A model generated the notes under the pieces. The model worked only from the letters and a program-made list of their open reading frames with translations, did not search any database and was not told the DNA's origin. A DNA stretch of 64,000 bases from Clytia hemisphaerica (Eukaryota > Cnidaria > Hydrozoa > Leptothecata > Clytiidae), in NCBI GenBank assembly GCA_902728285.1, contig CACVBU010000784.1, forward strand, positions 940,463-1,004,462, written 5' to 3'. The position numbers were made by a program, and so were the translations under genes. Positions 9,699 through 59,269 of this stretch are shown one piece after another; position 1 is the first letter of the stretch; each line of letters opens with the position of its first letter.

Positions 9699-9868
9699 TT
9701 AGTTTTCTAGGAAATTGTGTTTTATGAAGTTAGACTTATAATGGTACCTTGGTTTCCTTGCCAACCATATCAATGCTACGGCAGCGAGAACGGCTGCTAT
9801 GGGAACCAAAACATACAATGCAATGTAAGGGTCGCCTTCGAATTCTGACATGATGGGGATTGGTACTC
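9699..9868 (-). CDS. Last Ig-gene exon: transmembrane helix and short tail
   Basis: Encodes a juxtamembrane stretch (VPIPIMSEFEGDP), a hydrophobic helix YIALYVLVPIAAVLAAVALI, then a basic stop-transfer (ARKPR) and a short tail ending in HNFLEN and TAA. The tail has two tyrosines (YHY) but no known signalling motif. Confidence 0.88.
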
Positions 9869-12800
9869 CTAAATGAAAACAAAGTAAGCAATTGTAATTT
9901 CAAAACCCGTTCAATTCGCAGATTATCTTACTTGATTCACTCATCCTCGGTGGGAGGGCATATATGCTTTCAAGAATCTATAATGAAATGCGAAGCTCAG
10001 CGTGTTGCTTATTTGTTCTTAAACATTGGAAAATATCAGGCTGGTGATCTTATTAAAAATGTGTATTATTAAGAATATGCACCCAGAACCTTTCTCGTGT
10101 AGACAAAAAATAGACGATTGTGAATCTTTCACGTTTCTTACAGATTAGGTGAGCAAAAAAGTTCACTCACCTAGACAGTTTCCAATACAACTTTCTGATT
10201 CATATGCCGGATCGATACATGAATCCAAGTTACACAACCGTGTTCGGAAGCGGGTTCCAGCGCCGCATGAATTGTTACAACCACTCCAATACGTCCATTC
10301 CGTCATTAAAGTACCTTTGTAAAAAGAATGGGAAAATCATTGAAGACTGTCCATTTCAAATTCTGAATTCAAACAGTGGGTTAGTATCTCCCTAGGGTTT
10401 GGTTTATATTATACTATAAGAATGCTTATCAACTTATCTAAGGGCCTTGATTAAATTCTAATGAGACCTGATGAATAAACTGCAATTAAGTTGTGAATTG
10501 TTTTACCGTAAATCCTCGAATAAGTATAGTCTATCTTAGGGTGGAAAATGACATCCGAAAGGATCGTGTAGATGCTAATCAGAAGGAAAATTCCAATGAA
10601 AACCTATCAAGTTGATTGTTTGTTAACGTAACTTACCAAATACAGCCACAGGGAAAGGTACGGATACAGTTGCACCTGCATTGGATGCATGACAAAGATA
10701 TACACCATCATTGAATTCTTCCTTCGGTACCGTCAAAACGGAACCATTCTGAAAGATACCATTTTCACCGTATTTAGTCCAATAGAATTCTGGTTGTGGG
10801 TCACCAGAAGCAGCGCATGTGCAAGTCGTCACGCTACCGGAAGTCACGCAAGTGGGTGTTACCGTGATGTTGGGCGGAACTTGAGATAAGAAAAGTAGTT
10901 TGTTTTACCAATCATTTTACAAATTAATAGACACTAAGTCTTAATCGGACCCCTGAGAAAGTATGGACCAATGAAAACCTGAGATTTTGTCATGTGTACT
11001 GACTCATATAAAAGCCCTTAGGAAGTGAAATTGATATGTTGAATCTCTTAGCCCACCGGCAATCAATTTTAAAGTTGAGAAATTCTTCGGGTCAATGGAA
11101 AGATAAGAGTGTTAAAAACAGAAGACACTGGTATCGATATTAAAATGAATTTGGCTATACAACCCTTAAAAATATCTGGTATTCAGATTCGATTCTTTTA
11201 AATGAGTTGAAAAGAAAGATACTTAAAGCCCATTAATTTTAACACTGTGCACCATTTTTGCTATCATGTAGAAACCACTCTCAAGGAAATTACTATAATT
11301 ACGTTGACATGGTTTTCACATGATGGCCAAAAAAGAGTGCTACCACATTTAAGGTGAATTGATGATAAAATATTAAGATCAAATCAAAGGAATGTATGCT
11401 GAAAGAAACTTACTGGCAACGATCAATTGGACAGTGAAATGATCCAAACTGGTTCCTTCACTGTTGGTGGCTGAGCAATTATATAAACCACTGTCTGATG
11501 TCTGCAAAACAAAAAGTGAATACACTTGATTCTGTCTAACTTTTCGAATTATAGAATGGTTTCGGATTACAGAGAGTATTTATGGTATTGATTGAGCAAA
11601 GGGAATGAGAATTGCGTCAGTTAATGAATCCTATTTTCTGACAGTTGAAAATAAGTTTCAAAACGGAATCAGTTCAAACTATTCTGGTAATTTTACAACC
11701 GTTTTATCCACAGTAAAGTCTCTTTAACTCGTGCCTCGGATATCTCTTTAATTCGAACAGGTCTTGGTCTTTTCAGGTAACAACAGGTAACAAACCCTTA
11801 TAAACAAGAGTGTATAACTTGATTTTCTGTAACTCGGAAAAAGTTCCCCACACGTGTTCAAGTTACAGAGTTTACACTGTAGTAGGTTACTTTTACTGTC
11901 AAATCGTCAAATAGCAAAATAGGGCCTTCTGATGTCTAATTCCTGAATCATTTTTCTCCGAATCTGTGTCTTCTTACCGCTGCAGAGCTGATTGCCAGGG
12001 AATCTCCATTATTATTTGTTCCATCAGGTGATACCCATGTGTATGAAGGAATGGGATTGGCTAATGCAGAACAATTCAAGATGACGGAATCCCCTTCACC
12101 AACAACCACTGTTTGTGTGAGTGGGTTGAATGTCGGTAAAACTGAAAAACAAAAAATAAAGTTGCTTGATTGAAATAAAAAGTACAGTGAAGTCTTCATA
12201 ACTCGAACCTCTATTATTTGGTCTTCATAACTCGAACCTCTAATACTCGGTCTTCATAACTCGAACCACTAATACTCGGTCTTCATAACTCGAACCTCTA
12301 TTATTTGGTCTTCATAACTCGAACCTCTAATACTCAGTCTTCATAACTCGAACCTCTATTACTCGGTCTTCATAACTCGAACCTCTAATACTCGGTCTTC
12401 ATAACTCGAACCTCTAATACTCGGTCTTCATAACTCGAACCTCTAATACTCGGTCTTCATAACTCGAACCTCTAATACTCGGTCTTCATAACTCGAACTC
12501 GAACTCTAATACTCGGTCTTCATAACTCGAACCTCTATTACTCGGTCTTCATAACCCGAACCTCTATTACTCGGTCTTCATAACTCGAACCTCTATTACT
12601 CGGGCTTCATAGCTCAAACCTCTATTACTCAAATGTCTCCTTGTGTGTTCCACTGTATTGCTTTTGATAACAGACCCAGCGCAAAATTTCTATTAACAAA
12701 GAAGAATCCAGGATTCTTTCAAATCTCGTCCCCGTGTATTCCAAGCTTTATTTACATTACTGATGGAAGCCATAGAATATTATCTGGCGCTACCAGTAAG

Positions 12801-15800
12801 CATGTACTAGTAATCTATTAACAGTTTTTTCATGGTTAATTATGTACATATCGTAAATCCTCGAATAAGCGCCCGGGCGCTTATTTAATTTTTCAGGCTC
12901 TAAGGGGGGCGCTTATTCGAGCGGGGCACTTATTTTTTTATTTCAGAAATTCGTATACCAACAAATTCGGAATCTGCTTAAACTTAACTGTTTCAAAGGG
13001 TTGATTTTTCAAAAAGGGATGAATAAAAGAAAAATTGGAAAAATCCAATTGACAATTTCTATCATTTTATTCTTAATCGCTTTCTTTCTTTTTAAGACAC
13101 AAGTATCTACTCAATATCTTATTCAATCAATAACAACATTCGAATAAGGAGGGGGCGCTTATTTGAGCGTGGCGCTTATAATATTATTTTAACTAAAAGG
13201 GGGCGCTTATTCGAGCTGGGCGCTTATTCGAGGATTTACGGTATTCTAAAACTGCTTGTTTTTTGCGAAACAATGTTTCAGCAAATCTAATGAGGTTATA
13301 TATCTACCAAACTTTGAAATATCACAAAATTAGCTAATCCCATTCATTAAAACGATTCTGCATGCATCAGTTTTATGAGGACTTTTTGACAGTAGAAATT
13401 AACTTGCAACACAAGTATGAGTAAGTAAGTAAACAACTACAAGTTTAGGCTCACAAAAACTGAATGAATGTGATACAGTTGACCCTCTCTTATTCAATCT
13501 TTAAGGGACCAAGTATTTTCTTCGAATTAGAGAAAGATTCGAATTAGAACAAGTATTCTATTTGACTTTCTACCTGAGGAGATTTCAATTCGAATTACAG
13601 AAAAGCTCGAATAATAGAGGTTCGAATTAGAGAGAGTTGACTGTACAAATGAGAAAGTTCTTCATCAAAAAGAGCAACAACTTACAGTGTACGTTCAATA
13701 TTTCTTCTTGACTGCTTTGGCCAGCAACATTCTGCGCCAGACACGTGTACGTTGCAAAGTCTGCACTCTCAATACTAGTAATGGTCAACCGGCTCTCTTT
13801 CACTACTTTGTCCGCCGTGGTAGAAATCGTCGTCGTCGTGTAATCGGACACGCTTATCGGCACGCCGTCTTTCTGCCACGTAGCGGTTGCTTCAGGGTCA
13901 CTTTCGAATCGACAAACAAAGGTTTCAGATCCACCGAGAGTGGCGTTCCGTGATCCAGACATTAATCCGGGTGCGATGAAAGTCGGAGCATCTAGTAAAC
14001 AAATTATTGAAATAGAGTTGAGTTAGACCATAAGGCAGAAAATTTCAAATTAGCATTTAAGATATTTTATTGACTACAGTGGGATCTCTATAACACGCAC
14101 GGGGAACGCAAATTTGTTCGAGTTAAGGAAATTTCAAGTTATGGAGTAAGGTTTGTGAGGCATTATTAACTAAAAGGAACAGAAAATTCGTTCAAGGTTA
14201 AGAAGACATTCGAGTTATAGAGGTTCGAACTATGGAGACTGTACTGTACATCTTTAAATGTAGACCTCCAAACAGGACGTAGCTTGACAAAATATAAAAA
14301 ACCGATTACCTTATTACACAAATATTACTAGGAAAGTATTTAACGGCCTTGAAAATTTGCATGATCTGAAATTAACACGAATTTTTCAGCGTTTTCAAAG
14401 AAACAACGGCTGGTTTTAATGAAGGGGGTTTTTATTGACACGAAATTTTTCACTTCGTGTTAAACCCTATTCAACCTAGGCTTTTAGGGGCGGTTCAGAA
14501 CTAGGGGGGGGGGGGCTTTTCCTGTACCACCCCTTAACTTTTGATCTAGTTGGTCTTTTTGGGTGAAATTTGGCACACAAGATCTTTGTCACGTAAGGTA
14601 ACTTTTGACAAAAAATTTTTTTGATGACGTCACTCATCATGCCCAAGGTGAGCAAAAACCGAAAATTTCCTTTGTTCTTATAAATAGCTATTGTATTCTA
14701 ACAAAAGCTTTAGAACAAAGTTGTCTGAGTTTAAAATGCTTATTTTATCCTAAATATTCAATAAATTACGGTTTAAACGATATATTAGACATTGAAAACA
14801 AATTTGTATTGGAAAAGTGTCAATTTTTGTGACACCTTACTGTCAGAAATGTCATCATACTCAAGGTGTGAAAATTTTTAGGTGTCAAATTTTTTTTTAT
14901 TTTGAAGCTAAATAAAAGTTAGGAATTTACAGAAAATTTCAAGGCAAAAGCTCTATTATTTCAGGAGCTATTACCAATAGTTTGACGTCCGAACAGAAAG
15001 AGCCCCCCCCTAGGCCGAATAGGGTTAATAAAATGACTAGTAATATTCGTGTAATAAAGTATGTTTCTACTAATGCTTTGACGTAATCTATTTCACAGAT
15101 GAATCGGACCAAGAAATACCGCATACACGTTTTTTTATAAGAACATCCAAAATTTCTGAAGCCTTCGGATGTTCTTAACTTTTTAAGTTTTAAGCCTAAA
15201 AATGTTCTTAATGTTCTTATTTTGACCATTTTGTGGATATTTTTGAACCTTTTCCTAAAAAATAGGGTGTTTTTGAGTCGACAAAGCCTTAAAATATTCT
15301 TAACATTTTTGCCAGCGAAGCCTTTTGTTCTTATATAGTTTGTTCTTATAAAAAAAAGCGTGTACTCTCACAAACTGTTAAGCTGATAAGTTCTTAAATA
15401 TGTCATTTCAATTTACAGAAAGTTTACTTAAGTCCAAACATGACGTTAGATGAACGTTAGAACAACGTTGTGTACCAGCTGGAATTAGCTCTAGTTTAGA
15501 GGCCCGACTTTATATCTTATTCTAATTGATAGAGCAGGCAATGCCGCGCTCTAGAATAAAATAAGAGCCAAAAGAGATGTTTTTGTTTTGGATAGAAAGT
15601 TGACAGAAAAATTCTTCGATTGAAACAGATTGAAAGAAGTCATTACATTGAAAGATGCAAATTGACATTAAAAGAGATCAATGGGATGACTTTGGAAAGC
15701 AAACTTTGTTTAAACTTAATTTCGAAATTAGAATAGGTAGGTAAAAAGTAGATTATGCTATGGTCTAAGACAAATCACTATAGCTAAGAAAAAAGCCCAA

Positions 15801-18800
15801 GGCCGAAGAAAATTCGCAAGCGATTTTTTTGCTGAAAAAAGATTTTACAGCCGGTTACAGGCAGTTTGCCAGCCGTTTCCTGCGTTTACTATTCCTTTGT
15901 AACGGACAATAACATCGTCTAGACGAAAAGTGGGACATCTAAACAAGAGTTTCACTTACATTGTACATTGATATTGATCGGGTCCGATTGTGCCGAACCC
16001 AAATCATTCTGTGCTCTACAATAATACATTCCTTCATCCGTTCTTTCAATTCCTGCTCCATTAGCTTGGAAAAGCAAAGAAGTGTTGAAAACTCTCTCAT
16101 AATCTTCATTAGGGACTGTTTGTGTTTGCTGAGATATAAGATCAGTAACCGTTTGGTAAGTCACACCCCCGTCTGATGAGTAGAACCATTGAACGTTGGA
16201 GACTGGGTTGGAATCGATGTTACACGTGAGTGACGGCCATGAATACTCGATCACATCTACTGTTTGGTTACTGATCGGAAAATGCGGAGTCACAATTGGT
16301 GGGTCTGAAAGAAATGATAGACGGGATTATAGATTGAAAATATCTCACTCTTTTGTTTCTCAAGTTGGATCCTATCGTTTTCTTTAAAATAAAATAATGA
16401 CGACTTTAATATCTATAAATTCATGGGGACAAAAAGATCAAAAATATTGAAACTCTGAAAGAAATGATAGACGGGATTATAGATTGAAAATATCTCATTC
16501 TTGTGTCTCTCTTATATCGTTTCGTTTGAGTTAAAATTTTGACGACATTCAAACCAATCAATATATCATGGAAACAACAATTAAAAAGATTGATAGCATA
16601 ACAACATTCAAAATCAGTTATTCAAAATCTGTAATCAAAATTCTACATATCATGTCTTAGAATCTCAAGAATTGAATTGAACTTGAACTTGAAAAAGACA
16701 GGTCGGAATGTCGTTTTAAACCGGTTATGTTTTATTTTGATTTTGGTTATACACGTCTGAGGGCTTTTATGTTTCACTACGAAGAATCTACAAGATTAGG
16801 TCAATTTAATTTTAAAGGTTTTGTTTTTAAATAAGAGTGGTATCGTTTTCTTACTCATCAATTTTAATTCACAAGCTTTTTCGCATTGGATTGACACGGA
16901 TGTGGAGTAAGATGGTCAGAAAGAGGAAAAATTGCTTATATCAGCATAATATACAATAGGCAGACACCGTCCTGATATGAAATATGTGTCTGGTATGAAA
17001 CGGGAACACTTTTGTAAAAACAAAACCTTTAAATAAAACTACAACGGTAAAGAAGAAACAATCCGCAAAATGAAAATACTCACAGCAAACAATTAATTCA
17101 GTTTCAACTTCTTTGGTTCCCCTGTTGTTGGCGGCTTTACACGTATAATTCCCCGAATCATCTTTACTGGCACTCTGGAACGTCAATAATGACGTCATGT
17201 TTGTTTTGAAACTATCTGATGAAGTCGTACTCGTTGTGATGTCATAATCGGCATTGTTTGATAATAACGCGCCATCTTTATACCATTCGATTGTTGATGC
17301 TGGGTTGCTATGGACTACACATTCTAAATATTGTGGTCCAGTTCCGGCATTGATTTTGCTGGTACTCGAAAGAGTTACACGTGGTGAATCTAAAGGAAAG
17401 TTTGAAAGTATATGTGATGAAGAGCGCTTACATCTAAACATGGAATTTTGGTACCAACAGCACACACCATTTTAGCCTCCTTTGTACCGTACAGCCAGGT
17501 ACAGCATAAAGCGAAAATTGGATTTTTAAGAAGATGGTGAAACCTCCATTTTTATTTCAAACTCAGGTAAGTTATGACATGTCTCAAAAACATGGCAAAA
17601 AACATCACACCTCATACAAGGGTGTTACGTAATTGTTTATGCCCTCATAAGCGCGAGAATGATTTATAATCGAACCAAACTAGAAATTTGATTTTTTAGT
17701 AAACTCATTAACTCTAAACCTCCTCATTCAGCTCATTCTTCTGATAGATGTCGGGAAGCTACAATCAAATATTTTGGAAGGATAGAGTTTTAACTCTAAG
17801 TTTTAACATTAGACGGCGATATTCTCGCCGAACTTTAAATTTCTAAAAACCAAAATTCTCATTATATTTTGACCCAGATTCTACTCACATAGGACGATGA
17901 CATTGACTGGAGTTGATACAGAGCCATGTTCGTTGGACGCAGTGATGTTGTAAACACCTCCTTCCTCAGGCGTGGCCGATGTACTGGAATAAGTGCTTGA
18001 CCGGTATATGTCGTAAACGGTCCGTGGTTGACTATCAACTTCCGTTGTGGCCGAAGGAGCCAGTACCGTATCATTGAGGGTCCAGGTGTAGGTGACTTCA
18101 GGGACACCACGAACCTCGTACATGATGTTGAATGGATCGCCTTCGTTAACGGTAATATCTGTCGGTACTGTTTCTTCAATGGGAGAATCTGAAGCAAAGA
18201 TACAAAGATTATTTGTAATTACAGGGTTCCACTATTTAGCATTTCATGCATCACTTAATAAAATCAAATCTTTGAAACATACGTTTGCGATAATAACGCA
18301 TTATTTGGAATTGAAGTGTATTTCTAGAAAACGATTTCTTACTTTAAAAGAAAATTTTTTGAATGTTCAAAAAAATCTTACATGCAACAGACAAACTCAA
18401 AGGTTCTTCGTCATGTCCAATGAGATTGACAGCTTTGCACGAGTACAATCCGACATCTGTCAACCGCTGAACATCTTTGATCGTCAAGTTGGATGAAACT
18501 TCAGTATAGTAGTCATGATTCGTTGTCGTTTCATCAATCTTAAAATTTCAATAAAAATACAATTTAGGATATAAACAGCTGAAAAGGCTTCTGACTTCAC
18601 GTCACTTTTAAAACAGCTGATTGCTTGCAAGTGACGTATTGGGTAGAAAAAACAACAGAAAAATGACAAAATTCCACGTGGTGCCATTGCATGTACCATT
18701 GATACATTTGAGTGGAAGGCGCTGGAAAGAGCTTTACCTACACAAGGATAGGTATTTACTAAAAAGCTCAAAATTTAAGTTTTTTACTCCAGCGATAAAT

Positions 18801-21800
18801 GTGATATACTGAGGTACAGTGTCACAGTGTTTTTAAATGATCTCAAAGAAGCAGTACTAGATAAGAACCAAACAAAGTTCCAAACAAACATGCGACTTGT
18901 ATAGAATGAGGAGAGCAGAAGCTTACCTGATAGTCAGTATCGGTGCTCAAAGGACCAGTGCTTCCATAGAACCATTGAATGGTTGGTGCAGGCTCAGCAT
19001 GTGCGATACAACTTAATGTCCCATCATCACCTTGGATCACACTGGCGTTCTTCGTGTAACTGATAATCGGAACATCTAAAAAGGTTAAAGGTTTATATTA
19101 TAGAATTTTCGAAAATTTTCTTCCATTTTCCTAAAATTCCCTATCCTTAGACAAGACCTTTTTTACAAGTTATGTTTCGAAACTAAAAGGTTTCGTAAAA
19201 ATCGAGAGTTTTCCGAACGTTAGAGGGACTATTTAAAATTTTCTGACCTTTGGAGCCCTTAGAGAGACTTTAAAAGATAAAAAAAACGATCCTTATCGTC
19301 CACACATACCCAGCAGCAAATTTTGGCCTAAGTACCTTCCGGATGAGTTTGTAGTTAACTGTACCAAAATGGGGGTCCTGTAACTCACTATTCCACACCC
19401 CCTATAACAACTGAAGAAAACTTTAGCTAAATAAGGAAAATACCTAAAAAAATACGCCGTGCCTTTCTCAGTGTAAAAGTGGACACTGCTGCTAAATAGA
19501 TTTCAGCTTTTAACCGTGATCTCACCAATTTCATAAGGAAATCTTACGACAAAGGAAACCATTCATAAACTATACATACATTGAACAACCAATGTTGCCA
19601 GCTGACTGGTTACACATCCAAGCAGATTACATGCTGTGACATTATACTGACCAGACATAGTGCGGTCAGCTGCGGAGGAATAAGGGAGGGAGGTCTGCTC
19701 CACTGTATACCAAGTCGGGTCTGCATTATTGACTTCAGTCACTGATGGGGAAGTAGCCAATGGGATGCCATCTTTATAATAAGTAAGGGTTGCGGCTGGA
19801 CTTGATTCGACGACTAAAGTGAGTGGTGTTAAGGCGTCGCCTTCGGTTAGACGGATTTCTGATGTTGGGTGGTCTGTTGTAATCACAGGTAGATCTAAAA
19901 TGAACAAAAATTGAAATTAAACATGCGTTAAGAGGAAAACAAGAGAGTAGGTTCCGGTCAAAATCTAGGCGCAGAATTAAACATTCAACAGTCTCGATTT
20001 CCAGACCATTATTCTTATTACGCAAAATAGGGGTAATTCTCCTACAAAGTAAAAAATAGAAGTATATCTGCCATAAAAAAAACCACGCGAGAGAATGTTT
20101 GAATAATTTTTTCTCTTTTGCAGTACTGTTTTCTTTTGCAGTACTGTTCACCTTTTAGTGTTTGATAATTAGGTGAAGCTGATTATTGACCTGAAATTTT
20201 AAATTATTAGTCTAGATCTAGACTAAATTAAACAAGGAAAAAGCCATAATAATGGAACGCAATCTTTACTTTTCATTCATTCCAGAAACTTACCACCATG
20301 AAAGTGAGTTATGCTTTGACAGATAACTAGGCTGTCCATATCACAAGAGGAAATCATTATGGATGAACTTTAGCACCATCATGCACTTATTGATTGAAAA
20401 TAAAAACCTGTGAAAGAAACTTACGGCAGACGGAAACATTATAAGCAGCTGTGGTCGTGCCTTTGCTATTAGACGTCGAACATTCATATTCATTGCCGGC
20501 AGTTTTGCCAATGTTCGTGATGGATAAAGTTGAAGTTACACTAGACGAAAATAGACTGGTGTAGAGTGTGGTCTGAGTGATGGTGTTAGCCCCACCGTCT
20601 GTTATGGTGACGCCATTATGTTTCCAAGTGATTGCTGCTGGTGTTGGGTTGCCAAGGAACGTACATTCGATTTCCAATGTTTCAGTTTCGTTAACATGTG
20701 TATTTTGCGGAATGATGGTCGTTAACACCGGTTTGACTTGAAGCAAGAAAATCAAGAAAAAATTTTTAATATGTAAGGCCGTTTGTAATCACATTTTCAA
20801 GTCTCTACCATTGGTTAAAACCTCTCGAGAGTGATCGGCACTGTCGGATTTAAAGACAATAGAGCAAGTACGTCGGAAACATGCGAAAGAGGAAAAAGCT
20901 TGTTAAAAGACAATGAAATCACAATTACAAATCTCTTCGTCTGATAAGTTCGACAGGGCCTATGGTTGGTATTTCTAAAAACGATGTAATAGTCCATACT
21001 AAAAGGGAAAATTCAAAATAATCTCTTTCGCGTTCGAATTAGAGAGCGCCAACTGTACTAAAATACTTACATTCAACGATGACATTCCAAATATCAGTTT
21101 TGCAGCCAACCAGATTGCAGGATTGGATTTTGTAGACACCGGAGCTGGTGTAATCCACCGCTGTTTTGGAAAGAGAAGTTTCTTGCACTGTTTGGAAAAT
21201 ATCCTGTGAGGTTGTTGTATTGACCATAGTATGGTCCGAACCAATGAGTGTATCGTTGAAGTAATAGTAGAAATTTGAGTAAGGGTTTGAATAGAAGGAT
21301 GGAACTTGTAGAGATAATGGATCGCCTTCGTTCAAATTGATTGTATCAATTGTATCTGGGCTTCCCTGATCTAAAATATTAAAGCAAAGTTTAAAATGAT
21401 GAATACACCTATAATGCAATGAAAAAACGTCGAACAAAATATGAGATATGAAGGCGGTCTTTTTTACTGGCTTTACAGCTTAGTCAAGAGAATCGTGGTC
21501 TAAGATTTAGATTCGTGGAGAACTAATAATGAATATCCGATTTCAGAGAATGCTCCATCTATAAGTTTACAAGTAAAGAGGGTTTAACTCTGTATTAGAC
21601 AGCCAACTTTTAGCCCTGTCTATTCTGATTGTAATCTATAATTTGCAGAGAGTTGGCAGTCTAAAGTTAGTCGGTTGTCCTCTTTTGACCTCAATGCAAC
21701 ATCAGTCTATTACAAACAAAGATTTAAACTACAAGCTTTTTCGGTCCAATTGTTGCCTACTATAACAATTAGAATAGGGTAGGGCAGAATGTAGGTCATC

Positions 21801-24800
21801 TAAACAAAGCCTTAGCGAGTTAGAAACTTAGTTCGGTTACTTACAGTAGACGACAAGGACAGTTGAGATATTTCCCTGTTCCAATCCCGAATCTGCAAAA
21901 CATTGATAATTTCCAGCATCCGTTCTGTTGACGTTGGTGATATTCCATGCACGTTCTACCAATGCATATTCTGCCGTGTTCTCAATGACGTCGTCACCGA
22001 ACGTGTATCGTACGTCAACTGTAGCGACACTCCACGTCACCGTTGCAGCAGGATACGATTTGACGCGACACGAAAGGGAGACGTCAGTTGATTCGTTGAC
22101 GTAGTAATATTCTTGAGGGTGATCAGGACGTGCGAATGTTAAATTATCTGAAGTAACGAAAAGTTTCATTGAACACATTTACCTAAATCATCATAATTAA
22201 CCATTTTTTTGTCTAGTCTTTGTAATATTGTCAAATCTGATACATCAATCCAGACATCGGTTTATCTAGTAGAGCTAGAATAAAAGGTATTTAAAAGACA
22301 GACAAAAGAAACATCATCCCTTAAATATTTCGAAATTTTAACCCGTTCTTGATACGCTGTGGGCCCTCAACAACAAAAGAAGGTATAATGTTTCTTTTGT
22401 TTTTAAGATTGATTGTAAGGGATTTTCATAAAACTTACAAATGATGCTTATTAACGTCTTATTGGTATCCATAGCAGCAATATTTCCCGCCAGTGTGTTT
22501 TTGGCTTCACATGTCCACTCTCCAAAATCTTCTAACTGCACGGTCGTAAACAACAGCGAATGATAGGTTGTCAAGCTGTCTGATAATTTGGTTTCATCAC
22601 TCACCACCCTCCCGTCTCCCGGCACAATGTAAAGGGTTCCGTTGAAATACCAATCGATATCCGGTTGTGGATTACCGGTCGCCGTACAATTAATCTTGAG
22701 GTTTCTTTCATATTCGGTTGCCGTAATTTCAACAGGTGGGAAATCAATAATGGTAGGTGGATCTGTGGATAGAAAATGAATAGAAAAATCATGCTACTTA
22801 AAGCGGGACTGCTTTTTGGAAAGAAGGACATCAAAGCTTTTCAAGGTCAATTATTATATACCTTATCGGGGAAAAATTGGTCACTTGGTAAACGCATTAA
22901 GGCCGGGGAGAATTTTCGTCGGGGAAAATATTCGTCACTTGTCCAAAATTTCGTCACTTTTCCCCGACGAAGTTTTCCCCGATAAGGTGTCATATTATTG
23001 CATAATAGCTTATTTTCACAGCAAAAAGTCACGAACATCAAAACAAATGAAGAGACTGAACTTACAAAGTACATCAACAGTTGTTGCAAAGCTGACATTC
23101 CCCAAACTGTTGGACGCAAGGCATGTATATACACCAGCATGGTCCGTCGCCACTCCGGTGATTCGGAAATTACTAGTTGTGTGGTAAGAATCTGGTTGGT
23201 TCTCAGCATTGGTGATAGTATGCGTTGCATTAGGGGTAATTTCTACACCATCTTTGTACCAAGTGAATGTTGGTAGTTCGTTACTCGTAGCAACACATGA
23301 TAAACGCAAGATGGCATCCTGGTTGACTTGCTCCAATGCGTTTGGGTTTGCTGTCAGTTCTGGTGGATCTAATGGGGAAGAAAACGCAAAGGTCATGCTG
23401 TAGAGCCGTGTTAGTATATCGGAGTCTCTACAACTCGAATGTCTCTTTAACACAACAAGTTTTATCGACCCTTTAGTTAACAATGCCTTACAAACTTTAC
23501 CCCATAACTCGAAATTTCCTTAACTCAAACAAATTAGTGTTCTCGCGTTCGAGTTATGGAGACTCCAATTTATTTCGATTATTTCAATGGAAGAGTTACC
23601 AAGGTTAGAAACACGTTTTAAGAATCTCTTAAAAAGATGCTTACCCCCTGGATATCGTATTTGTTGCTTGAAAAGACACTTTACCCCCTGAAATTCCGCT
23701 CCCTTGTAGATATTTAACCCCCTGTATACCCACTTTTGAACAAAAATCGTTAATAGACCTTATCGGAGTTTTTGATTTTTCTAAAAAAGCGATGCATTGT
23801 AGATTGTTTCGGGGGTATTACAATAGAAATCTCTTAGGAATTCCTCGAGGGAATTCTATTGTAATACACTCGAAACAATCCCACAATACATCGCTTATTT
23901 AGAAAAATCAAAAACTCCGATAAGGTCTATTCCCTGCTGGATATCCAATATCCTCAACAGGGGGCACGGAATATTTCTGGAAAAGCCCATAAGATTATGG
24001 TGTATTTCTGTTCAATCATGGGTATTTTTAACATTTTTATAAAAATCATCCTAATCAGTATCCATTTTTTATCAGTATTTTTGATGTGCGTGTGTATCAA
24101 GATTACGTCGTTAGTTAAGATTACGTCATTATACTCGTCCAAAAAAACCAGAATTTACCCCCTTAGTTTGCTCGGATTGAATAAGAAACACGTAATCTAC
24201 ACATATCAAGAATTGATTGAAATTCTTTATAATGCAATGTGTCTTTGATCTATGAAATAGACCTCCAAACACTCACACAGGGCACAGGATTTACGGTAGC
24301 CTGTTAGACGAAAACCGCTTTTTTATCGCCTGTTATTTTTTACTGCGGAATCGAATTGGTCGAAATTGACGCAACGGATGAAAAAAGTAGAACTTCCTTC
24401 AACTTTTTTTCTTGTTTGCGCGAAACCTTTTTATGGCGTGATCTTTTTTTCAGGCAAAAAGGTTAAAAAAAACTGTCACCCGTTTCGCGCGAAAGTGGAG
24501 ACCAGTCTTTAAAAAGAAAAAAGGGAGAACTGCGTGCGGGGGTTCAGCGGATGGGTTTATTAAGATCCCAGTCTACATGTTAGAATAAAGGTTCGTGTTA
24601 GAGTATTGACGAAGTCTGACTTTCAAGGGGAATTGGATTTTCATCGAGTAATGCGTATTGAATAATAAAGGAGCGTCGCTTATGAGAGTTTCTTGGTTAC
24701 GTTCGCTTTCGAGATTATGACGCGTATCGAATAGTAGATCGTCGCTCATGAGTTTCTTCGTTATGGTGGCTTTTAATATCATCGAATTATGGCGCGTATC

Positions 24801-27800
24801 GAAGAGTAGATCGTCGAATCAGAGAGCTACAACTGTTTTTATAATCTATTGAGACATTGGAACGGCGACCGTGAACACGAGCCAAAATGGAAGATCATCT
24901 ATTGAAAAGCTTAAGCAAAAACACAATTACACGGGGCGATTTATATTACTGGTATCACAGAGTGCACAAGAAAATTCGAGCGAAATATTGGGAAATAAAG
25001 AACTAACTTACAATTGCTACACGGTGTTTCATTCTGGCGAAGTCTTCAGGCAATGCAGTGTATTGTAGATATTATTTCATTTTATTTATTTGAAATACAA
25101 TCTACAATACACCTGCATTGCCTGAAGACTTCGCCAGAATGAAACACCGTGTAGCAATTGTAAGTTAGTTCTTTATTTCTTGATATTACTGGTCTATGAA
25201 TAATAGACGTCCAAAAAATGACAACATTTGAATGCCACATTCGACCAAGGGAAATATAAAATTGAAAGAAAAACTCTACTCTTATTATGTGTAAAAGCAG
25301 ATAAACTGCTTGTGGTTTGGGAATTGGTTAAATTGGAAATACCCTGGTAAGTTGGGAATTACCAGTTGAACTTCATCATTTTCTGTACAATTAGGCTACG
25401 TCATATTTTCCTTCTTTTCGAGCGTAAAACTCCTACTCACTGAAACAATAGAGAGTTTCGAAACCTAAGCTAATCAGCTGTGTTTTAAACATTCTTTTAT
25501 TGGAATCTCTATTGATAAACATCTTTTGTGAAAGTTGTCTACTCTTAGGTTCCAAATAAACGGGGGGGTTCGAATAAACGGGGGGGTTCGAAAATTTTCT
25601 AGATTTTAATAAACGGGGCGGGGGGGGGACCTAATTGCCGGGGGGTTGGAAATTGTACTTCTGAAACCCAAAAATAAGGTGAAAATAGGCTAAAATCAGG
25701 CTATTTGGAGCAAAATAAGGGGCCTTCTCTTTGACAGCTGAAAATATTCTTAGAGATTAATAAACGGGGGGGTCCTAATAAGGTCCGGGGGGTTGGAAAA
25801 TTTTCGAAAAATTAACAAGCGGGGGGGAGGCGTTTATTTGGAACCTAAGAGTATTATGTTTAAACCTAGTCTACACAATAGACAGCTCCAGGCTTTTAGA
25901 CCTTACTCTTGGTCTATAGGCACTGCTATAGGCGGCCACTAGTGACCCCCACCGGGAATTGCTTATTAATAGGTTTAAACATAATAGACAACTTTCACAA
26001 AAGATGTTTATCAATAGAGATTCCAATAAAAGAATGTTTAAAACACAGCTGATTATTAGCTTAGGTTTCGAAACTCTCTATTGTTTCATTAAAACCTCAG
26101 TGCGCATGCAATTTATCTGAAGAATTTCAATATTCAAAACAAGAGCAGTGCTCATATCCCGAAGAGTAGGAGTTTTACGCTCGAAACGAAGGAAGATATG
26201 ACGTAGCCTAGTTTAAACCTCTATACAATAAACTACTGTACAATAAGATAACAAGAGTACCGAGTTAGTATATGAGGCCCCCCCAGCGGTTTGCGTGATG
26301 GCGTGATTGGGACTTTTTTCTTGCGTGATGGCGTGATTGGGACTTTTTTCTTGCGTGATGGCGTGATTAGAGATTTTTTGGCGTGATGGCGTGATCAAGA
26401 TTTTGGCGTGATTCGTGATAGGGCAAAAATTTAAGGCGTGATGCGTGATTTGGGCTATGTTTCGCTATTTTTTGCATGATGACAAATTTTAGCGATTTTC
26501 GTGATGCGTGATAGAGAAAATTTTTTTGCGTGATGGCGTGATTAGGGGTGCCGCTGGGGGGCCTCGTATATGGAAGAAAATGAAAACAAACTTTACAACG
26601 GCATACCGGAAAAGTGGGATAGGGGAACCCGGGAACCTAAGTGGGAACTCTAAGTGGGAGCCCTAAGTGGAAACTCTAAGTGGGAACCTAAGTGGGAACT
26701 CTAAGTGGGAACCTAAGTGGGAACTCTAAGTGGGACCCTAAGTGGGAACTCTAAGTGGGAACTAAAAAAATATAAAAATATCGCTTGATGGGATAGGGAT
26801 AGGCTGCATCTTAATGAGCAACCAGCTACATCTTAACGAACAACCAGCTACATCTTAATGAGCAACCAGCTACATCTTAATGAGCAACCAGCTACATCTT
26901 AATGAGCAACCAGCTACATCTTAATGAGAAATCAATAGCAAAAAAAATATTGGAAAGGCTTCCATGAACTCTAGTTTTTAGATGTCAATGTACTTTTTAC
27001 CCGGGGGGGGGGGGGAGTGGGTTTACCAACTGACGGTATGTGCGGCGAAAAAGTTGGCTTTTAGAATCGCACCCTTACAGTGCAGAAAAAAATCGGTGAA
27101 ATTCATACCCTTACAGTGTTTTTCAAATTTTAAACTCTTTTAGAGCAAAAAAATCAACATTTTCGAGCAAAAATTTGCAGTTTTTCCCAGATTTGCTGAA
27201 ATTTCCACCCTTACAGTGCATTTATCAAAAGTCCACCCTTACAGTGCATTTCTGATATTTTGAAAAACATACCCTTAACCGCCGCATACCCGTCGGTCAA
27301 TTTGCCTGACTGCCCCCCCCCCCGGGACTTTTTATAACCTATTCTTCTTAAAAAAACTGGGTTATTGTTATACGAGTATGTTGGTAAAAACCAAATTAGA
27401 AGGAGTTTTCACTTTTTTTTTGGTTGGTCGGTTTGCAGATGGATTTTCTTTGAAGCAGCTAATTAAATATGATGTAAACATTTTTTGAATAAAGGTAGTC
27501 TTTAATCACAAAGCATTTTAAAATGACAATTAGACTTATCTTAGTAATTAAATTTCTTTTAATCGACTGTCATACTATGAGGTAATCGAGAGCGCCATTT
27601 CCAGGGAGTGTCTCACCTATGGTGCATTCAAACTTATTTTTCAGCTGAGTGCAAGTTGCATTGTGGGACCAAATAAAGCATGGGTGCTTTGCGAAAACGA
27701 GATGGTAAATGTTATTGCGTGGATGGAGAGAAATGTAAACAGGGTGGCGAGGTGAATGAGTACAAGTTGTTCATCAAAATGGGGTTGTAATCATAGAGTG

Positions 27801-30800
27801 AGGAAAGCTAAAGATAATTTCCTTACAGCTATCACGAACGCTCAAAACTTTATTATCCCTACAAATCGCCATTCAAACACTTCATTCAAAATACCGGGAG
27901 CCGATAAAAATGCAGATGAGTTGATCATGTATGAATCCAATTCACGTACACAAGGATAAAGAGATGAGGATTTGATTTACTGAAAATCTCTTCGATCACG
28001 GTGAAAGTAATAACTCTGGTACACACGTATTCGAGTTTACACAAAATTTTGTTTAAGTCTGTCTTAGACTACAGTATAAGGATTTATCCAATTAGAGAAA
28101 AAATCATGTAAAAACGATTTAAAGTCAAGATCCTCTTCAAGTACACACTATCTTTGATAATAACACAAGTTTTGACTGTTCTTTTTTTTCAATAGATTTA
28201 GAGGTACAGGATGTTCTCAGTTGGATGTTCTCGTTAGTCTATATTCCATTGCTACTTTAGTAGGGTTTAATTTCTCTATTATGATTTGTTCTAACAAAAA
28301 CTTGCGAAAACCTTGAGATGGGCGACATGGGATGGCCCGGGAAGAGAGGATAATGGGGGGGGGGGGGGGTGTTTTCCTATGAAGTGGAGAAGAAAGTGCA
28401 CGAAATTTCAAAGAGATAAACGATGGTATGTTCGCTGCTTTGTCACAAAGAATGTAGTGAGTCGATTGTTCGTGACAATTTTTCAAATTGGGGAGAAAAT
28501 CAAATGGGAGTCTCAATGGGAGTTCGCAATCTACTAATTAGACGCGGGCCTCCCATATAACCAAACATTCAAGATGACTTACACATGACATTAAAGTAAG
28601 TTGTTTCATTATCGGTTCCAATGGAATTGCTTGCCAAACACATGAGCGTTCCCAGATCGTCCTTATCCAAAGTGTTCATGGTGAGCGTGCTCTCTACTTC
28701 AACCTCTGTGTCTGTACTACTAACCGTCGTCTGTGAAGCGGAATGGCGCGAAATGGGTAGACTGTTCAAATACCTTGAAAAAAGAAAAAATTCGTGATAA
28801 AACTTTGACGATATTTTGTCCTTTACACATCCTTATCAAGTTATAAGGCAAGACCAATTTAATTTGTTCTACGGGCAGATCGTTAGAAAAATATGGGTCG
28901 GTCGGTAAAATAAGAATAAATTTTTCATTTATCAGGGTTGGTAAGGTACCGAAAATACTTCTGGATCAAAAACTCACTTTATTTTATCTTCGATGAAGAT
29001 CATAATAAAATTGTAGTGTATGGAATGCTTGATTTTCTAAATTTTTCAATTTCTTGAATTAATTTGCAGCTTTATTCAAATTTAATTCTTACAAATAACT
29101 AGTGTGTAAAATCTATTGTAGTGGAAATTCAATATTTTTATTTTTTTTTGATTTTAGCCAAAATAGGGTCGGTCGGGCTTGTAGAACAACAAATTAAACT
29201 GATCTCACCTAAGAAGATTTTTAACTATCGACCTATGCGGCAGAAGCTGAGTGCCAGGGTTCTCCATACAAGGGGCGAATGACGTCAAATGTCTTTGAAG
29301 TAGTTGAAGTACTCAAAAGCATTAGTCTTTTCACGGTCAAAAGGAATCATGGGTAATCAGGACCCAACCTAGTTCCCTGTGTTAGCGCTAGATAACGTCA
29401 ATAGTTAAGTTAAGTAAATCGGTAAAATCACGACGACGAACGAAAATTTAACAGGCTAGTGAGTTTAAACCAATCGTCCGTCGTCGTGATTATCCTGGTA
29501 TGCTTAACCTCAGTAATCAGTAACGTGAATAAAGCCTGGGATACACGGGGACGAGGTTGATCAGGACCAACGCGCTCTGAGCGACCTTTTTTTGGTCTAA
29601 AATGGAGGCGCAATCAGTCCTGATTACCTTATGGTTCATCGTGGCAAGGAAAATTGAAACTTTAAATTAATAAATACTCTCTCCCCTTTCATAAAACAAT
29701 CTTTTCATACCATTGAATAGTGAGAGGGCCTGGGTAACCAACAGCGGTACATTTGCGAACGATGTTGGTGTCACCAGTCGTGTGGTTGTCATATTCTTGG
29801 ATCAGAGTATGGCTCGTAATATTCACCGCGTCTGAATAAAGGAGCATGATTAAGTGAGTTGTCAACAGTATTGGTAAATCAAAAAGCTCTTGAAATCCTA
29901 TCTATTCCAACAAGATAACACAACAATTAGTAGCTTGATAGGTAGTATGGGATATCCGTAAAATGAATGGCTTTAAAGGGTCACCTGTCAATTTTAAACT
30001 CGTATGTAGATCAACGGTATTACCAATAGACATTCCTAAATTCATATAATATTATGCGGCCCGTTATTTATGTCAGCAAACCGGACGTCAAACAAGGGGT
30101 TCAAATAGTTTGGAATCCCAGTACTTTCCAAATTTAGTAACAGTAAAGGAAAGGCGAGTCAGCAGGCAGCAAGTCCTCTAGAAAGACTGTCTGAAAGTCC
30201 TCGATTATTGGTTTTACCAATTATCCCTTTATCCAATTTATCAAATTTAATAGTAATCAAACTACCACTAATATACAGGGTGCCCCGAAAAAAAGCATCG
30301 AGTCGTACCACTTCTATAGAAAGAAAGTTCTTGTGTGTGTTTCACTAAATTTGCAATGTTTATCATATTAATTGTCATGAGACATCTTTTATGAATAACT
30401 TTTACAAAAAACAATTCTCAATAACTTTAACGTCATGAAAATTGTAAAGAAAGTTAATTCTTTTTAATCATAATGACTGATGTAAAAATAATTATTGTGT
30501 TGGTATATCTATCTTACATTTTGTTAAACACAAGCAAGAACCTTCTACTCGGAATCATGTTTGAGCCATAGATTTATAAACCCCGTAGGGCTAGATGGAG
30601 TGCTTTTGCTGAAAAGTGTGCCGAGGTTAGGTAGGAAATCCTACCTAAATCACGTGACATTATAATAGAATTTCAGCGCTTGACCAGTCAGAAGCTTCGC
30701 GGGTTTTCGAAAACAATGGCAACAACATTTTTCCCGATATTCTTTATTTTGCCTGCGACGGCTTAAAGCACGACATCTAGCCCTTTGGGCTTTATATCTA

Positions 30801-33800
30801 TGGTTTGAACTCAATACTTTTTTTTAACAGTAATAGAACTTACAATGTACGATAAGTGATACATTTTGTTGTACGGCGTCATAAATATTATCAGCGGAAC
30901 ATTCGTACGTTCCATAATGTTCTAATTCAGTTGGATTGAAAGTAACCGTTGATGTTTTGAAGACGATGGTCCCTACACATTTATCGATAGTCTCTGTTGT
31001 GATGTTATCGTATAACACACCACCATCCAGTTTTGTCCAAGTGATTTCAGGCGCTGGATTCCCATAGAAGGTGCACGTTAGACTTGATGATTGAGGTTTG
31101 ATACCGTAGACAGGACTTGTGTAATTATCGAGGATCGGTTGCGCTGAAAATGGAATAAGTATAATCGTGTGTCTCAGAGTTGAAATCCTCTACATTACAG
31201 AAGTGACTAAATATCACTTTTGGTGTTTACAAGAACTTTGTAGGGAATTCCTCTTTTTATCAAATATTATTTGATTGTAGCTCGGTAGAAGTCTAGGGAG
31301 CCGGTATTCTGGGTTTCACCCACCCCTGTATCTTCAAAATGTAATGAAAAACTATGGAATTTTGGAGCGAATTCTCACAACTTTTTGCTTGCAACTGGCA
31401 GTTTCAGATTGATTGGTTAATTTTTTGCATTTATATAATCATCAAGAAAAAACAACTATTTCATTTTTTGTAGTACTCCGATTTTAATGTCTTTGGACAT
31501 TCGTCAGCTACTAAATAAGAAAGAATTTGGTTCATATCAGACTACATTTTTGGGTTATTACATATACATACCTGTTACTTCCAACGCCAGCGTTGCATTA
31601 TCACCAAAGCCCATCACATTGTACGGGTGGCACGTATAATTACCACTGTCTGAATATGCCACAGATGAAATATTGTATATCCCATCCGTAACGTTGGCAA
31701 CCAAGCTACCATCTTTGTAGATGAGGTAATACATGGGTTCAGTGGATGCATCAGTATCACATTGAAGAAGCGTGGTGGAAAGAAGATGAACCGGGTTCAC
31801 TGTAGCATTCAATGTTGTGTTTCTCGGAGCGTCTGAAGAAAACCAATAATAAAAGTTCGGAATGAGCTCTTCCAGAAAATGTTTGTACATAGGGGGTGGA
31901 GGATATATTGCCCGGGGGGGATAGTGAAAAATTTACAAAATTTACCTTGTTGGCCTGTTTTGGGGTAGTTTTGAATGTCCGGGGATCGACTGATATTTGT
32001 TCAGGGGGTTAGACCTGTTGTCTGGGGTCTAAAGTGTGTGTCCGGGAGGGGGTAAACTACCATAAAATGTTATATCCTCAGACCCCACCCATAATCATTT
32101 TTTTTCTGGAAGAGTCCAATAAATGAATGATCTCTTACCATTTGCTTAAACAGCATTTTTTTAACAAAAAGGAAAAAACAATCCCATCCTCCTGCACCGC
32201 GTGAGCACAATCTTATGGAATTTTTGTTTGTTAATTCTGCTTTGTCTGCATTTAAGAGGCGCGCCTCCTTTCCGTATCGCCAAAAGGAATATGTATCTTT
32301 AATTAAAAAGTGAAATGAGTCACGAAAATTTCCTTCAGTAATTAATTTGAATATTTCAGCTCATCCAAGCAAAATAGGAGCAAGATTGATTTCAAGATTA
32401 TGAAAAAATGACCAAATCTATAAAAGTTCTAATCACAATTGAGCTAGAGCTGACTAAAATACTGTATAAAGGCTATTAGAAGATAATCAAATACACTTAC
32501 AATAGACATCAACTCTTCTGTAAATCCTCTTTTCAGTCAGTTTGTTTTTAGCTCCACACGAATAATTGCCGACATCTTGATGGCTCGCGCTCGTGATCGT
32601 TAAATCTGACGTCACAATGGTTTCATTGCCAACCGTGTCCGTACTCCAGTCAGTGATGAAATAATCACTTGTGTTTGTCAATGCTGTTGTCCAATCATCT
32701 TCAAAATACCAGAAGAGGTCTGGGGCGGGTTTTCCGGTCACCGTACAAGTGAGCGTGATATTCTCCTCCTCGTAAACTGTCGCAACATTAGGTGTGATTG
32801 ACATACTGTGTGGATTGACTGGGAATGAAAAAGTAATCAAACATTATTGGTTTTAAATTACTTTAAGTTGCTTTATACTTGTACTAAAGAAAAGACTATA
32901 CAATATTTTCAAGAGAGCTTATCAAGCATGATACAGACGAAACAACGATTTTGATAGAAAACCGCCAATTGAAAATGTCCAGAGGTTATTACTAAGGCTC
33001 GACTGGGATGGATGACAAGTTAATCTAAACAAACCGAGGATAAATTAGAGTCCAAAGCTGCTATACATAAAATATAATAAATTCATTGGGGTAGTGGAAT
33101 CAATAATTACAAAAGCCCCGCTAAGACAGAAAAAGAATTATGATTCATACCAACAACAGTGAGATATGTGACGTGATGAAAAACTTCTGCAGAATTATCG
33201 AAATTGATTTTGACACCGTAATAACCTTCATCAGACAATTCAATATGGTGGATGTAAAGACCAGACTTGGTGCTGGCTTCATACGTATACTTGGTGTCGT
33301 CTGTAAAGTGAAATATTCATCATTTTATGATTCATGTTCGGATTGATGTTGGATGAAAAGAAAATCTTTTAACCCAGCTGGTACAAAACGTTGTTTTGTG
33401 AACATTAGATAAACGCTGAAAGAACGTTGTATGTCAGCTGGGAAAACTGATAAACTTTACAAAATTCGATCGATATTTTACGAAGATACTTTTATTTTCA
33501 TGGAGTTCACGGTCAGCCGGCTCCGCTATTTATCACTTTTAGAATTATATTGCACTTGTCGTTTATAAGAGGGCTTGTTAAAAGGGTTATGAGCTTTTGT
33601 TGAATTTCTGCATAACACAAACACTCAGAGCAGCTCAGAGTTAACATATATTAAACCACCCATGATAATCTCTTGGAAAGTGATGCACAGACGAGCTGTC
33701 AAAAACAATAAGATCATAAGTACACGCTCTTGTTTAGCTTTCACTCAAAAACCATGTCCTTATAATCATACTAAAGGCCGGTCTCCACTTGTGCGCGCTT

Positions 33801-36800
33801 CAATCGCACTTTTTGGCTTCAATCGCACTTTTTGGCTTCAATCCTTTTTGCTTGGAAAAAAATTACGTCATAAAAAATGTAGCGCGCGCTTGAAAGAAAA
33901 GTGCTATCCTTTTGAATATTTTAACTTTTTTCAACCGTTACGTCAGATCGCGCCAATGGAGTTGCTTCATTTTTCTTTTGACCAATAGCGTGGAAGCTTT
34001 GCTCGAAAAAGTGCGATTGAAGCGCGCGCAAGTGGAGACCGGCCTTAAGGGATGTTCAAAGCGTAGCAAATAAAGTACACACATTTATGACAGACTTCAA
34101 CATTCAAAGATTTTTCAAAAAAAAATATATCCTCTTACTTTTCATGTTGAGACCTGGTGCAGTGGGTTGTAATTTTCCGACCAGAAATTCTACAGTTTCG
34201 TTCCCATCGATATATTTTTCCCATACAATGTCATCGTACGGTTGCGTGTAAGTGTATTGCCAATCAAAGAAGATAGAATCACCCAGAGCACCGCATAACG
34301 GAGTGTCCGGTACATTTGTGAGCATTCCGTTTACTGTGAAGAATAGGTTACCGTATAAATTCGAATAAACGCCCCGGGAGTTTATTACTTTTTTTTTCGA
34401 TTTCACGTTTAAAAGAAGGGGGCGTTTAGTCGAAAGTAGTAATATACAGTATAATGAGTATACAATTGACTCGAATGACAGAGAGAGTATTTTATATCAC
34501 TTTCCAGCTTAGGGGACCAATACTTCAGTTCGAATTATAGAGAGATTCGAATAGTAGAGATTCGAATTAGAGAGAGTTGACGGTACTTTTTTTTATTCAA
34601 GCCATTTTATCGTTTGCACCATTCCGTAATTTGAAGTCAATCTTTGACAGATCAGCTTGGAAAGACTTGCAGAATTATCCATAAGCCACTTCATAAACGT
34701 AATGAATCATGGGTAATCAGGACTGAGATTGTGTCTCCATAACGACTTCCCGTTGGTTAGATACAAAAACATCGAAACTTTTGGACCAACAGAAAGTCCT
34801 TAATAGAGCACAGTTGGTCCAAAAGTTTGGATGTTTTTGCGTCTAGCCAACGGGAAGTTGTTTTATGAACACCATCAGTCAACTTTTTTTAATCATTTTT
34901 TCTGAAAGAGCCTTGGAAGTTGTTTTATGAACACCATCAGTCAACTTTTTTTAATCATTTTTTCTGAAAGAGCCTTATAAGGAGCATCTCACAAAATCAC
35001 CGAACTAAGAAAGCAGAAGAGAACTTACAGACAAGAACACGAATCGTTTTACTGATGGAAGTGAAACCCGAAACACTCGCTTCACATCGATACTCTTTAC
35101 TGTTCTCTGTTTCTTCGATTGGATCGATTCGAATCGCACTGGTAGTCGTGTAATAAAACGTGTTATCTATCACAGATTCGTTGAATTTGATTACGTTGGA
35201 AGTAATCTCGACGTTGTCCTTAAACCAACGGACGGGTCCGGCGGTACTTGACACGAGCTGTGGATACGACGTAATGTTACAGTACAGGAGAACGGAGTCG
35301 TTGACGTACGTACTGAATATTTCCACACCGCCAAGTTCGTACGTATCACGATCGAGCGCCACCAACGAAATGTCCGGTTGGTCTGAATGCAAATAAAGAA
35401 ATTAGAATGATAGGATAAAAGAGATCGAGAAAGTGAATTTCAACTTCTAGCATAGCTTTTTGTTTTTTCCTTGGTTACTTTAAAGAGAAATTCCCAAAAA
35501 CTTGCTTTCATTCTCCGTTTGGTGCTAGAAAGTTTTAACGAATTAACCATAGCTTGATCCTTGAAAAGGGCGTTCTGCTGACTCCCAGTCCCTTACTTTT
35601 TTTAACGAAAAGACCATTATTTGACACCAGAAGATGGATATGAATCGAGATGACAAGGTACTTGCCAGTAACAACAAATTTGAAATACGAACTTATATAT
35701 ATTAACACTCATTTTAACGGGGGAAAAATAAGTCGACCTACAAGTAAGGAAGACATTTGTGGTCTCATTATCTGCGTAACCAATACCATTCGTTGCATAG
35801 CAACCGATGACACCAGAATGTGATCTGTGCCACCAAATCTCGATTTCACTAGTCACTACCCATAATCCTGTTACGTTACTTGCTGATACCTATGTGAGAA
35901 AATTATAAGTTGTTTTATTCTTCGTTTTCAAACATCAGCCTGATTTGTTTACATAAATAGCAAACTACAGCCTAAAATTTTCCATTTCTATCGAACAAGT
36001 CTATCGGTTCATCTAAATTAGATGTCTAGCAAATAAATCTAGCGATCATGCTGAACTTGCATTTGATTGGAATATAATTAATTAAAAGCAATGGAGCAGG
36101 TTTTTGAATATGTTATTTTATGAACCAACCAACCAATTGACAGTCATACCTCAGTGACATTGGTTGTCATAGCAACACCATCATTCTGCCACGTGACTGT
36201 GGGTTTAGGAAAACCCTCTACTGTACAAGTGTACGTGACCGATTGTCCTTCTGTTGGTGTGACAGATGGTTGTACAAGAGTCGTTGCCGTAACATTGGGC
36301 GCGCCTTGAAAAATAAAAATTAGAACCTGTTAGATCAAGGATCATAACAAAATTCAAGGTTTTATTTAAACGTAAAAAAATATGATATAAGTTGGAAGAA
36401 CGGTTTATACCATTTTTGATAAAATCTGACTGGTTAAATATGAAACATGAAAGGCCTGAATAAATGATTTTAAGAGGTCTGGAACTTCTAGTAAATGAAG
36501 AGTAACACGGAGATGTGTCTTTTTTCTTTCTTAAGTGATTCTAAGTTTTTATACATAACAATCAAGAAGAAAACAACTATTTCATTTTTGTAGTCCTCTA
36601 ACTTTCATGTCTTTAGACAATCATCAGCCGAGTGACACTCTTTAGACTGTGCTGAGGAGCAAGCTGTGCTTCTCCGTTCACCACAAGCGATTATGCGAAG
36701 CTCAACACTTAGTGTTTACTCGCTTACCCGAGCTGCACCGACGAGTCCTAACAAGAACAAAACACGTGTCTGCGGATAGGTGGATTGATGTATAGACAAT

Positions 36801-43291: not shown

Positions 43292-44464
43292 TTTTATAGA
43301 AATCTCAAAATTGCTTATTTATTTTTCTTGAGTATCTTACACTAAGGTGGTCGATAAACACAGGTTATGTCTGAGCATAGTCCATCATTTTCCAAAGTCT
43401 TGTTAATTGTTTGGTCGGATGAATGTTTAATGGTCTTTTTGTATCATTCTAGAATTTCGTCATTATTAGTGTTCTCTATGTCTCTGTGTGTATTGTTATT
43501 GAGGTTTTTCTAAAAATATAAAAATATATTATTAGCAGCGTAGTTAAGAACAATGCCCTCTTCTGTCTGGAATATCAACTTTCTTCTCTGAAATCAAGCC
43601 TGTTAATATATTGAGAAAGCCAGTGATTATAAAAACATCGAGATATTTGAGAATATTGTATATTTTGTTAAAAAGCTTTCACGGGATCAAATTTCATTTT
43701 TTCAGAGCGAGAAACAAAAAATAATTTATCAGAAGTGATATGAGATGTCATTAGATGCATCTTGGTATCAGGAGTTTATCAAAGTCAATATGGATAAGAA
43801 GCTGATGTGTGAATTTTGAATACACCCCTAACCCGAGGTATATTTTGCATAATAAAGATGCGAAGCCCACAGCCCTTACAAGGACCACTCAGCGAGACCA
43901 AATTGCAATGAAATAACAACAACAGAGGCTTTCTCTTTTATTTTTCGTATAAAGTTAAAAAAAATGGTCTATTCATTATTTATCATTTCTAAAAATTCAG
44001 GCATTTTATAGTATACCTAGATACTAGGTGAAAGAAACAAAAAGGAAAAGAACAATAAATAAATTTGATTCGTTGTGTGTGATTTCACATGGTCAACCTG
44101 GTCATTCGTCACCCTAAGAAGAAATATATAGAATATATTAATATCTGATAGATCCAATGTTTTAGTTTGAATTACAGAAAGATTTGGATTATAGATGTTC
44201 AAATTAGAGAGATTAGAGTATCAAATGGCTAGAAATTTCAGTAGTAGTTTCAACTGGTTTCACCAAGCTTTCATGAAAAAATACATTTGAAATTTACACG
44301 GGCTCTCCGTATGTAAAGAATAGCAACAATGAATGATACATGGGTTTCAACAAAGAAATTCGTATCTTGTAAAGATACGATCAAATGGGAAAGCTTGCGT
44401 AAATATACCCAGTGTCAAAAAAGTTACTCCACCACAAAAAAATACATATAATTTAAAAAATGTT
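43292..44464. other. Intergenic region, caspase to MCCC1
   Basis: About 1.2 kb, AT-rich, with no credible open frame. It should hold the caspase promoter and the MCCC1 3' UTR. A fragment of an ATTCGAA MITE lies near 44160-44215. Confidence 0.45.
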
Positions 44465-59250: not shown

Positions 59251-59269
59251 TGGTAGCAGAAAGTGGTTC
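59251..59269 (+). promoter_or_regulatory. Primer binding site, tRNA-iMet type
   Basis: TGGTAGCAGAAAGTGGTTC directly follows the LTR. Its first ten bases complement the 3' end of animal initiator tRNA-Met, and part of the following bases also match. Confidence 0.85.

Follow-up and report, generated by a model that had tools for sequence, protein, structure and literature searches.

The question raised by this locus is what becomes of an immunoglobulin (Ig) domain that has lost the disulfide between strands B and F, the feature by which extracellular Ig domains are best known, and carries two cysteines in another place. The locus lies in a stretch of 64,000 nucleotides from the hydrozoan Clytia hemisphaerica (contig CACVBU010000784.1, positions 940,463 to 1,004,462), hereafter the window, in whose own numbering positions are given. 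On the minus strand of the window a gene was modelled that encodes 24 Ig-like domains (D1 to D24) together with a thrombospondin type 1 (TSP1) domain and what is likely to be a membrane span. The structure models suggest that D15 and D17 are I-set domains in which the B-F disulfide has been lost and a local disulfide across the hairpin of strands F and G is found instead, a reading to which we give a probability of roughly 0.78.

Displaced cysteines in D15 and D17

D15, D17 and D19 are encoded by one exon apiece, of phase 1-1 and with AG/GT ends; the D15 exon reaches up to position 21370 and the D19 exon down to position 17889. The cysteines of strands B and F are absent from all three, and the place of the core tryptophan is occupied by tyrosine in D15 and D17. 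D15 (99 residues) has exactly two cysteines, residues 84 and 89, within YKIQSCNLVGC, and D17 (104 residues) has exactly two as well, residues 88 and 93, within YNVTACNLLGC. In a joint alignment both pairs fall in the same columns and read C-N-L-x-G-C across the F-G turn. The exon translations and this alignment confirm the original prediction, made from the DNA letters, that D15 and D17 lack the canonical cysteines and the core tryptophan and have two new cysteines at equivalent places. D19, which had been assigned to the same type, agrees with it in having no cysteine and in showing serine at both columns of the pair (YNITASNEHGS), but it retains the core tryptophan (TYTWTLND), a feature that the prediction did not mention. 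The strand-F tyrosine and the N-x-x-G turn are present throughout, with Y83, N89 and G92 (D17 numbers) invariant in the three domains. Intracellular I-set domains often lack the cysteines of strands B and F, which therefore provide no strict criterion of membership.

Among the 22 domains tabulated, which leave D1 and D7 outside, the canonical cysteine pair is absent only in D15, D17 and D19; by eye, it is seemingly absent from D1 and D7 too. As predicted, D14, D16 and D18 are canonical and alternate with the three. D14 and D18 contain no cysteines beyond the canonical two, and D16 has a third at its C-terminal end. In D16, as in D20 (17084-17389), this odd cysteine is encoded by the final complete codon of the exon, where the following domain is joined. 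The cysteine that seemed to end many domains in the raw translation (VECK, for example) is mostly a TGT read into the intron; as a third cysteine it was rejected for D14, D15, D17, D18 and D19, in which the spliced codon at that end is tyrosine or phenylalanine. D15 and D17 are therefore left without a third cysteine.

Two cysteines placed at random in D17 would match the D15 places with a probability of about 2e-4. Since D15 and D17 are probably related, shared descent is the first explanation of the match. Their identity is about 30% overall, with 9 of 17 residues shared around the turn and 20 of 82 elsewhere, where the turn window was chosen post hoc and includes common I-set turn residues.

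Fold, bonding partners and constraint

D19 lies above the curated Pfam cut-off as an I-set domain, D17 matches Ig_3 below the cut-off (1.1e-05), and D15 matches Ig_3 alone (0.075). AlphaFold2 (AF2) models, for which the input alignment was in each case the same set of 16 single-exon domains from the gene, reached a mean pLDDT (predicted local distance difference test) of 85.6 for D17 and 90.3 for D15. The top fold matches of the two models were Ig domains of KIT, DIP, titin, myomesin, FLT3, FGFR and others, and from these models the fold of D15 and D17 is judged to be Ig, of the I-set kind. The structure prediction that had been proposed as a check accordingly gave an Ig fold for both domains, with the cysteines on facing ends of strands F and G. 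In the D15 model strand F ends and strand G begins with a cysteine, and in that of D17 the two sit one pair further out from a two-residue loop. Taken from the secondary structure of both models, the two cysteines of each pair should face each other.

The same C-x-x-x-G-C was found at F-G hairpins of a fibronectin type III (FnIII)-rich gene on another contig, C517 (loci L061, L063, L070, L072 and L078), which we take to resemble usherin, the product of human USH2A; the one domain of it scanned against Pfam matched fn3 with 8.9e-10. Given this spacing in the F-G place, and a strand-F form, Y-x-[IV]-x-A-x-N-x-x-G, that is common to the Ig and FnIII families, D15 and D17 could themselves be FnIII domains of the usherin kind. 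This is extremely improbable, and FnIII identity was rejected: up to an E of 10 Pfam listed no fn3 match for D15, D17 or D19 (though most weak matches are lost to the HMMER filters) and assigned D17 and D19 to Ig_3 or I-set, both models find their closest folds among Ig domains, and the phase 1-1 exons stand within a run of Ig domains. One entry among the 50 listed in the fold matches of D15 was titled a titin FnIII fragment, and families beyond those 50 may match as well.

The gene on C517 bears on the bond as well. Of 24 F-G hairpins chosen by eye from open frames of the five loci, which cover part of the gene, 10 have both cysteines, 14 have neither and none has a single one; seven of the ten pairs keep the strict spacing, and three have another loop length or letter. 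Such all-or-none pairing has a chance of 5e-07 given the counts, a figure to be read with the kinship of the domains in mind, which are not independent. The hairpins with a pair partly alternate with cysteine-free ones along this gene.

A second copy of the Ig gene was located on contig C244, running from D5b to TSP1 in the stretch fetched, which starts at D5b. It is 87-97% identical to the window in aligned blocks longer than 500 bases and is taken for the other haplotype. Both copies carry both cysteines in D15 and D17, with one silent change in a cysteine codon. Over 11 in-register domains the copies differ by 53 silent and 12 replacement changes (dN 0.0047, dS 0.071), the ratio being 5:1 in D17 and 5:0 in D19. 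The local hairpin disulfide of the original prediction is thus supported on three sides, by cysteines that face each other in the models, by the retention of the pair in both haplotypes and by the all-or-none state of 24 out of 24 hairpins on C517.

A different set of partners is conceivable, in which the hairpin cysteines are not bonded to each other: a cysteine of D17 would bond the third cysteine of D16, and those of D15 would be free or bonded to another chain. D16 and D17 together have five cysteines, an odd number, so that at least one must be free, intermolecular or bonded elsewhere, and the third cysteine of D16, as the last full codon of its exon, is well placed for the role. We consider this arrangement quite unlikely, because D15 has the same pair though D14 offers no third cysteine, the models set both cysteines of D15 and of D17 opposite each other, and D20 has a third cysteine at the same end and yet D21 has no hairpin cysteines.

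It is also rather doubtful, if less far-fetched, that the pair is a neutral relic of shared descent, bonded or not, with no effect on the domain. In favour of such a relic, D19 manages without the pair, Ig domains without the F-strand cysteine, many of them titin-like by eye, occur in the same genome with no core disulfide, and the compared part of D15 shows silent and replacement changes in equal number. Against it, D15 and D17 have diverged to their low overall identity and both retain both cysteines, as do both haplotypes.

Several points weigh against a hairpin disulfide in D15 and D17. The cysteines are placed at strand level in the models, and the models draw on 16 domains of a single gene. 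The third cysteine of D16 lies close to the end of D17 at which Ig topology presumably puts the F-G turn, and could bond a D17 cysteine. The pair is known from two domains of one gene in one species. Where D15 was compared between the copies, silent and replacement changes number 4 each, which indicates that constraint there is not strong. Finally, the D15 and D13 exons of the C244 copy have frame-breaking length differences as assembled: this copy (L010, L011) lacks 20 bases of D13, has 5 inserted in D15 and is longer by about 340 inside D12, differences that reflect either a null allele or an assembly error.

Descent, distribution and gene context

Two trees were built, both excluding D1 and D7, the first including the columns that define the trait and the second leaving out eight of them. 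In the all-column tree D15, D17 and D19 form a group (87/80), within which D15 joins D17 (87/72). The reduced tree is weak; D15 pairs with D19 (77/74), and the three domains as one clade fit slightly better (p-AU, the approximately unbiased test, 0.581). As the branching of D15, D17 and D19 differs between the trees, a gain in D15 and D17 and a loss in D19 are indistinguishable. The joint absence of both cysteines from D19, which had been offered as the sign of a bonded pair, does not carry that weight: serine precedes the asparagine in D11, D12 and D16 and follows the glycine in D21, all canonical domains of the same gene, and from these sequences the serines of D19 are an ordinary I-set state and no evidence of paired loss. 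The proposed two-domain unit duplicated three times fares unevenly. D15, D17 and D19 form a weak group, as it implies, but D14, D16 and D18 do not, a forced group of these being not rejected (p-AU 0.213), and an intron splits D18 but neither D14 nor D16.

Beyond this gene, the genome searched has 951 contigs and a size of 417 Mb. Fifty overlapping loci, most of which came from Ig searches, were scanned for the motif (188,773 bases); D15 and D17 alone showed the cysteine pair, and a single cysteine was met in no N-type turn. Two motif matches outside Ig or FnIII domains in a scan of 80 loci, in L070 and L073 (internal stops), were dropped as chance. In the 50 loci and the window, a home-made profile gave 110 distinct Ig matches, including fragments and some domains of the second copy; 22 of the 110 have no recognised F-strand cysteine, partly since some are fragments. 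Genome-wide, 502 candidates came up for Ig_3, of which 150 were scored and 30 were given loci. When D17 and D19 served as protein queries, close matches were confined to the two gene copies, and matches in other places were weak.

Against solved structures, the whole of D17 gave 11 weak rows and the whole of D15 two chance rows. The cysteine pair was absent in the five aligned of 113 solved-structure rows for a whole C517 FnIII domain, and hairpin probes met no pair in 4 of 4 and 5 of 7 rows aligned, in a search that was not exhaustive. A narrow literature search of titles and abstract starts found no report of an Ig domain with a disulfide across its F-G hairpin.

The features of the gene are collected in Table 1. 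D1, D2, D4, D5, D7, D11, D18 and D23 are each encoded by two exons. The exon with the membrane segment starts at 9868 and would end near 9748. Translation was made in two sets, D1-D11 and D12-TSP1, the frames of D1-D7 and D8-D11 being unjoined in the first. Because the D7-D8 and D11-D12 junctions are unjoined in the model, two genes are possible, and a second one may start at D7, which is similar in type to D1. At the thresholds used, the second half of D7 showed no donor and that of D23 no acceptor, and no signal peptide exon was identified in the gene model. The host of D15 and D17 is probably a long membrane protein of type I.

Table 1. Modelled features of the multi-Ig gene, in window positions.
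Feature	Position	Strand	Basis
24 Ig-like domains D1-D24, whole span	10637..40667	-	Exons with AG/GT ends, phase 1 at domain borders
D1, V-like	40433-40667 + 39691-39821	-	Only weak V-set matches
D7, V-like	34139-34333 + 33155-33300	-	Only weak V-set matches
D14, canonical Ig domain, single exon	21845..22147	-	Exon ends, Pfam, translation
D15, Ig domain without core Cys/Trp	21071..21370	-	Exon ends, AF2 model, Ig fold matches
D15 hairpin Cys codons	21117-21119 + 21102-21104	-	
D16, canonical Ig domain with third Cys	20425..20736	-	Pfam Ig_3 1.4e-13
D17, Ig domain without core Cys/Trp	19580..19894	-	Exon ends, AF2 model, Ig fold matches
D17 hairpin Cys codons	19629-19631 + 19614-19616	-	
D18 first half, canonical, exon phase 1-0	18927..19075	-	Exon ends, Pfam, translation
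D18 second half, canonical, exon phase 0-1	18382..18538	-	Exon ends, Pfam, translation
D19, I-set, zero Cys, core Trp kept	17889..18188	-	Pfam I-set 2.8e-10
D19 Ser codons at places of Cys pair	17935-17937 + 17920-17922	-	
TSP1 domain exon, 3' of D24	10171..10314	-	Pfam TSP_1 9.1e-08
Likely single membrane-spanning segment, exon after TSP1	9759..9827	-	Hydrophobicity by eye; in phase with TSP1 exon

Elsewhere in the window there are a caspase domain in a single open frame (42416-43318, Pfam 3e-48), a retrotransposon with integrase core and RVT_2 (59183-63294), presumably Copia-like, and interstitial AACCCT-type repeats that resemble telomere repeats (536-633 and 2447-2521).

Possible consequences and known systems

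If the hairpin disulfide is formed, D15 and D17 would have exchanged the core B-F bond for a short one that links the two strands where F ends and G begins and closes a four-residue turn, N-L-x-G. Such a bond could pin the F-G tip, a usual contact loop. Under load, D15, D17 and D19, having no B-F clamp, may unfold almost fully and their clamped neighbours only partly, and soft and stiff modules would then alternate along the protein. Near-full extension would be expected because the bond encloses four residues in D15 and D17 and none exists in D19. In contactin-4, the disulfide in each IgC2 domain shelters about half of the domain, and the lengths assigned to unfolding were about 10 and 18 nm for IgC2 and about 31 nm for FnIII (PMC5562865).

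In its full form the idea would make D15 and D17 a distinct Ig subtype, with the core clamp exchanged for a hairpin staple of the FnIII type, even domains that resist and odd ones that yield under tension, and contact loops pinned; this remains a tentative proposal, which we would not expect to hold in its entirety. A hairpin bond in D15 and D17 would in itself mean that the Ig and usherin-like FnIII families have reached the same fix, a local staple at the F-G tip. With Ig domains of both sorts, clamped and unclamped, as neighbours in one protein, the gene also provides a direct test of the role of the core clamp.

Among the closest known systems are the I-set domains without a B-F disulfide, those of titin and the like and domain 4 of KIT. 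In V-set domains of the Siglec type, the B-F bond is replaced by one between strands B and E. The replacement of the B-F bond would be common to these and to D15 and D17, but the Siglec bond lies within one sheet, whereas that proposed for D15 and D17 would cross a hairpin turn. The FnIII domains of the gene on C517 are alike in their C-x-x-x-G-C spacing, yet belong to a different domain family and a different gene.
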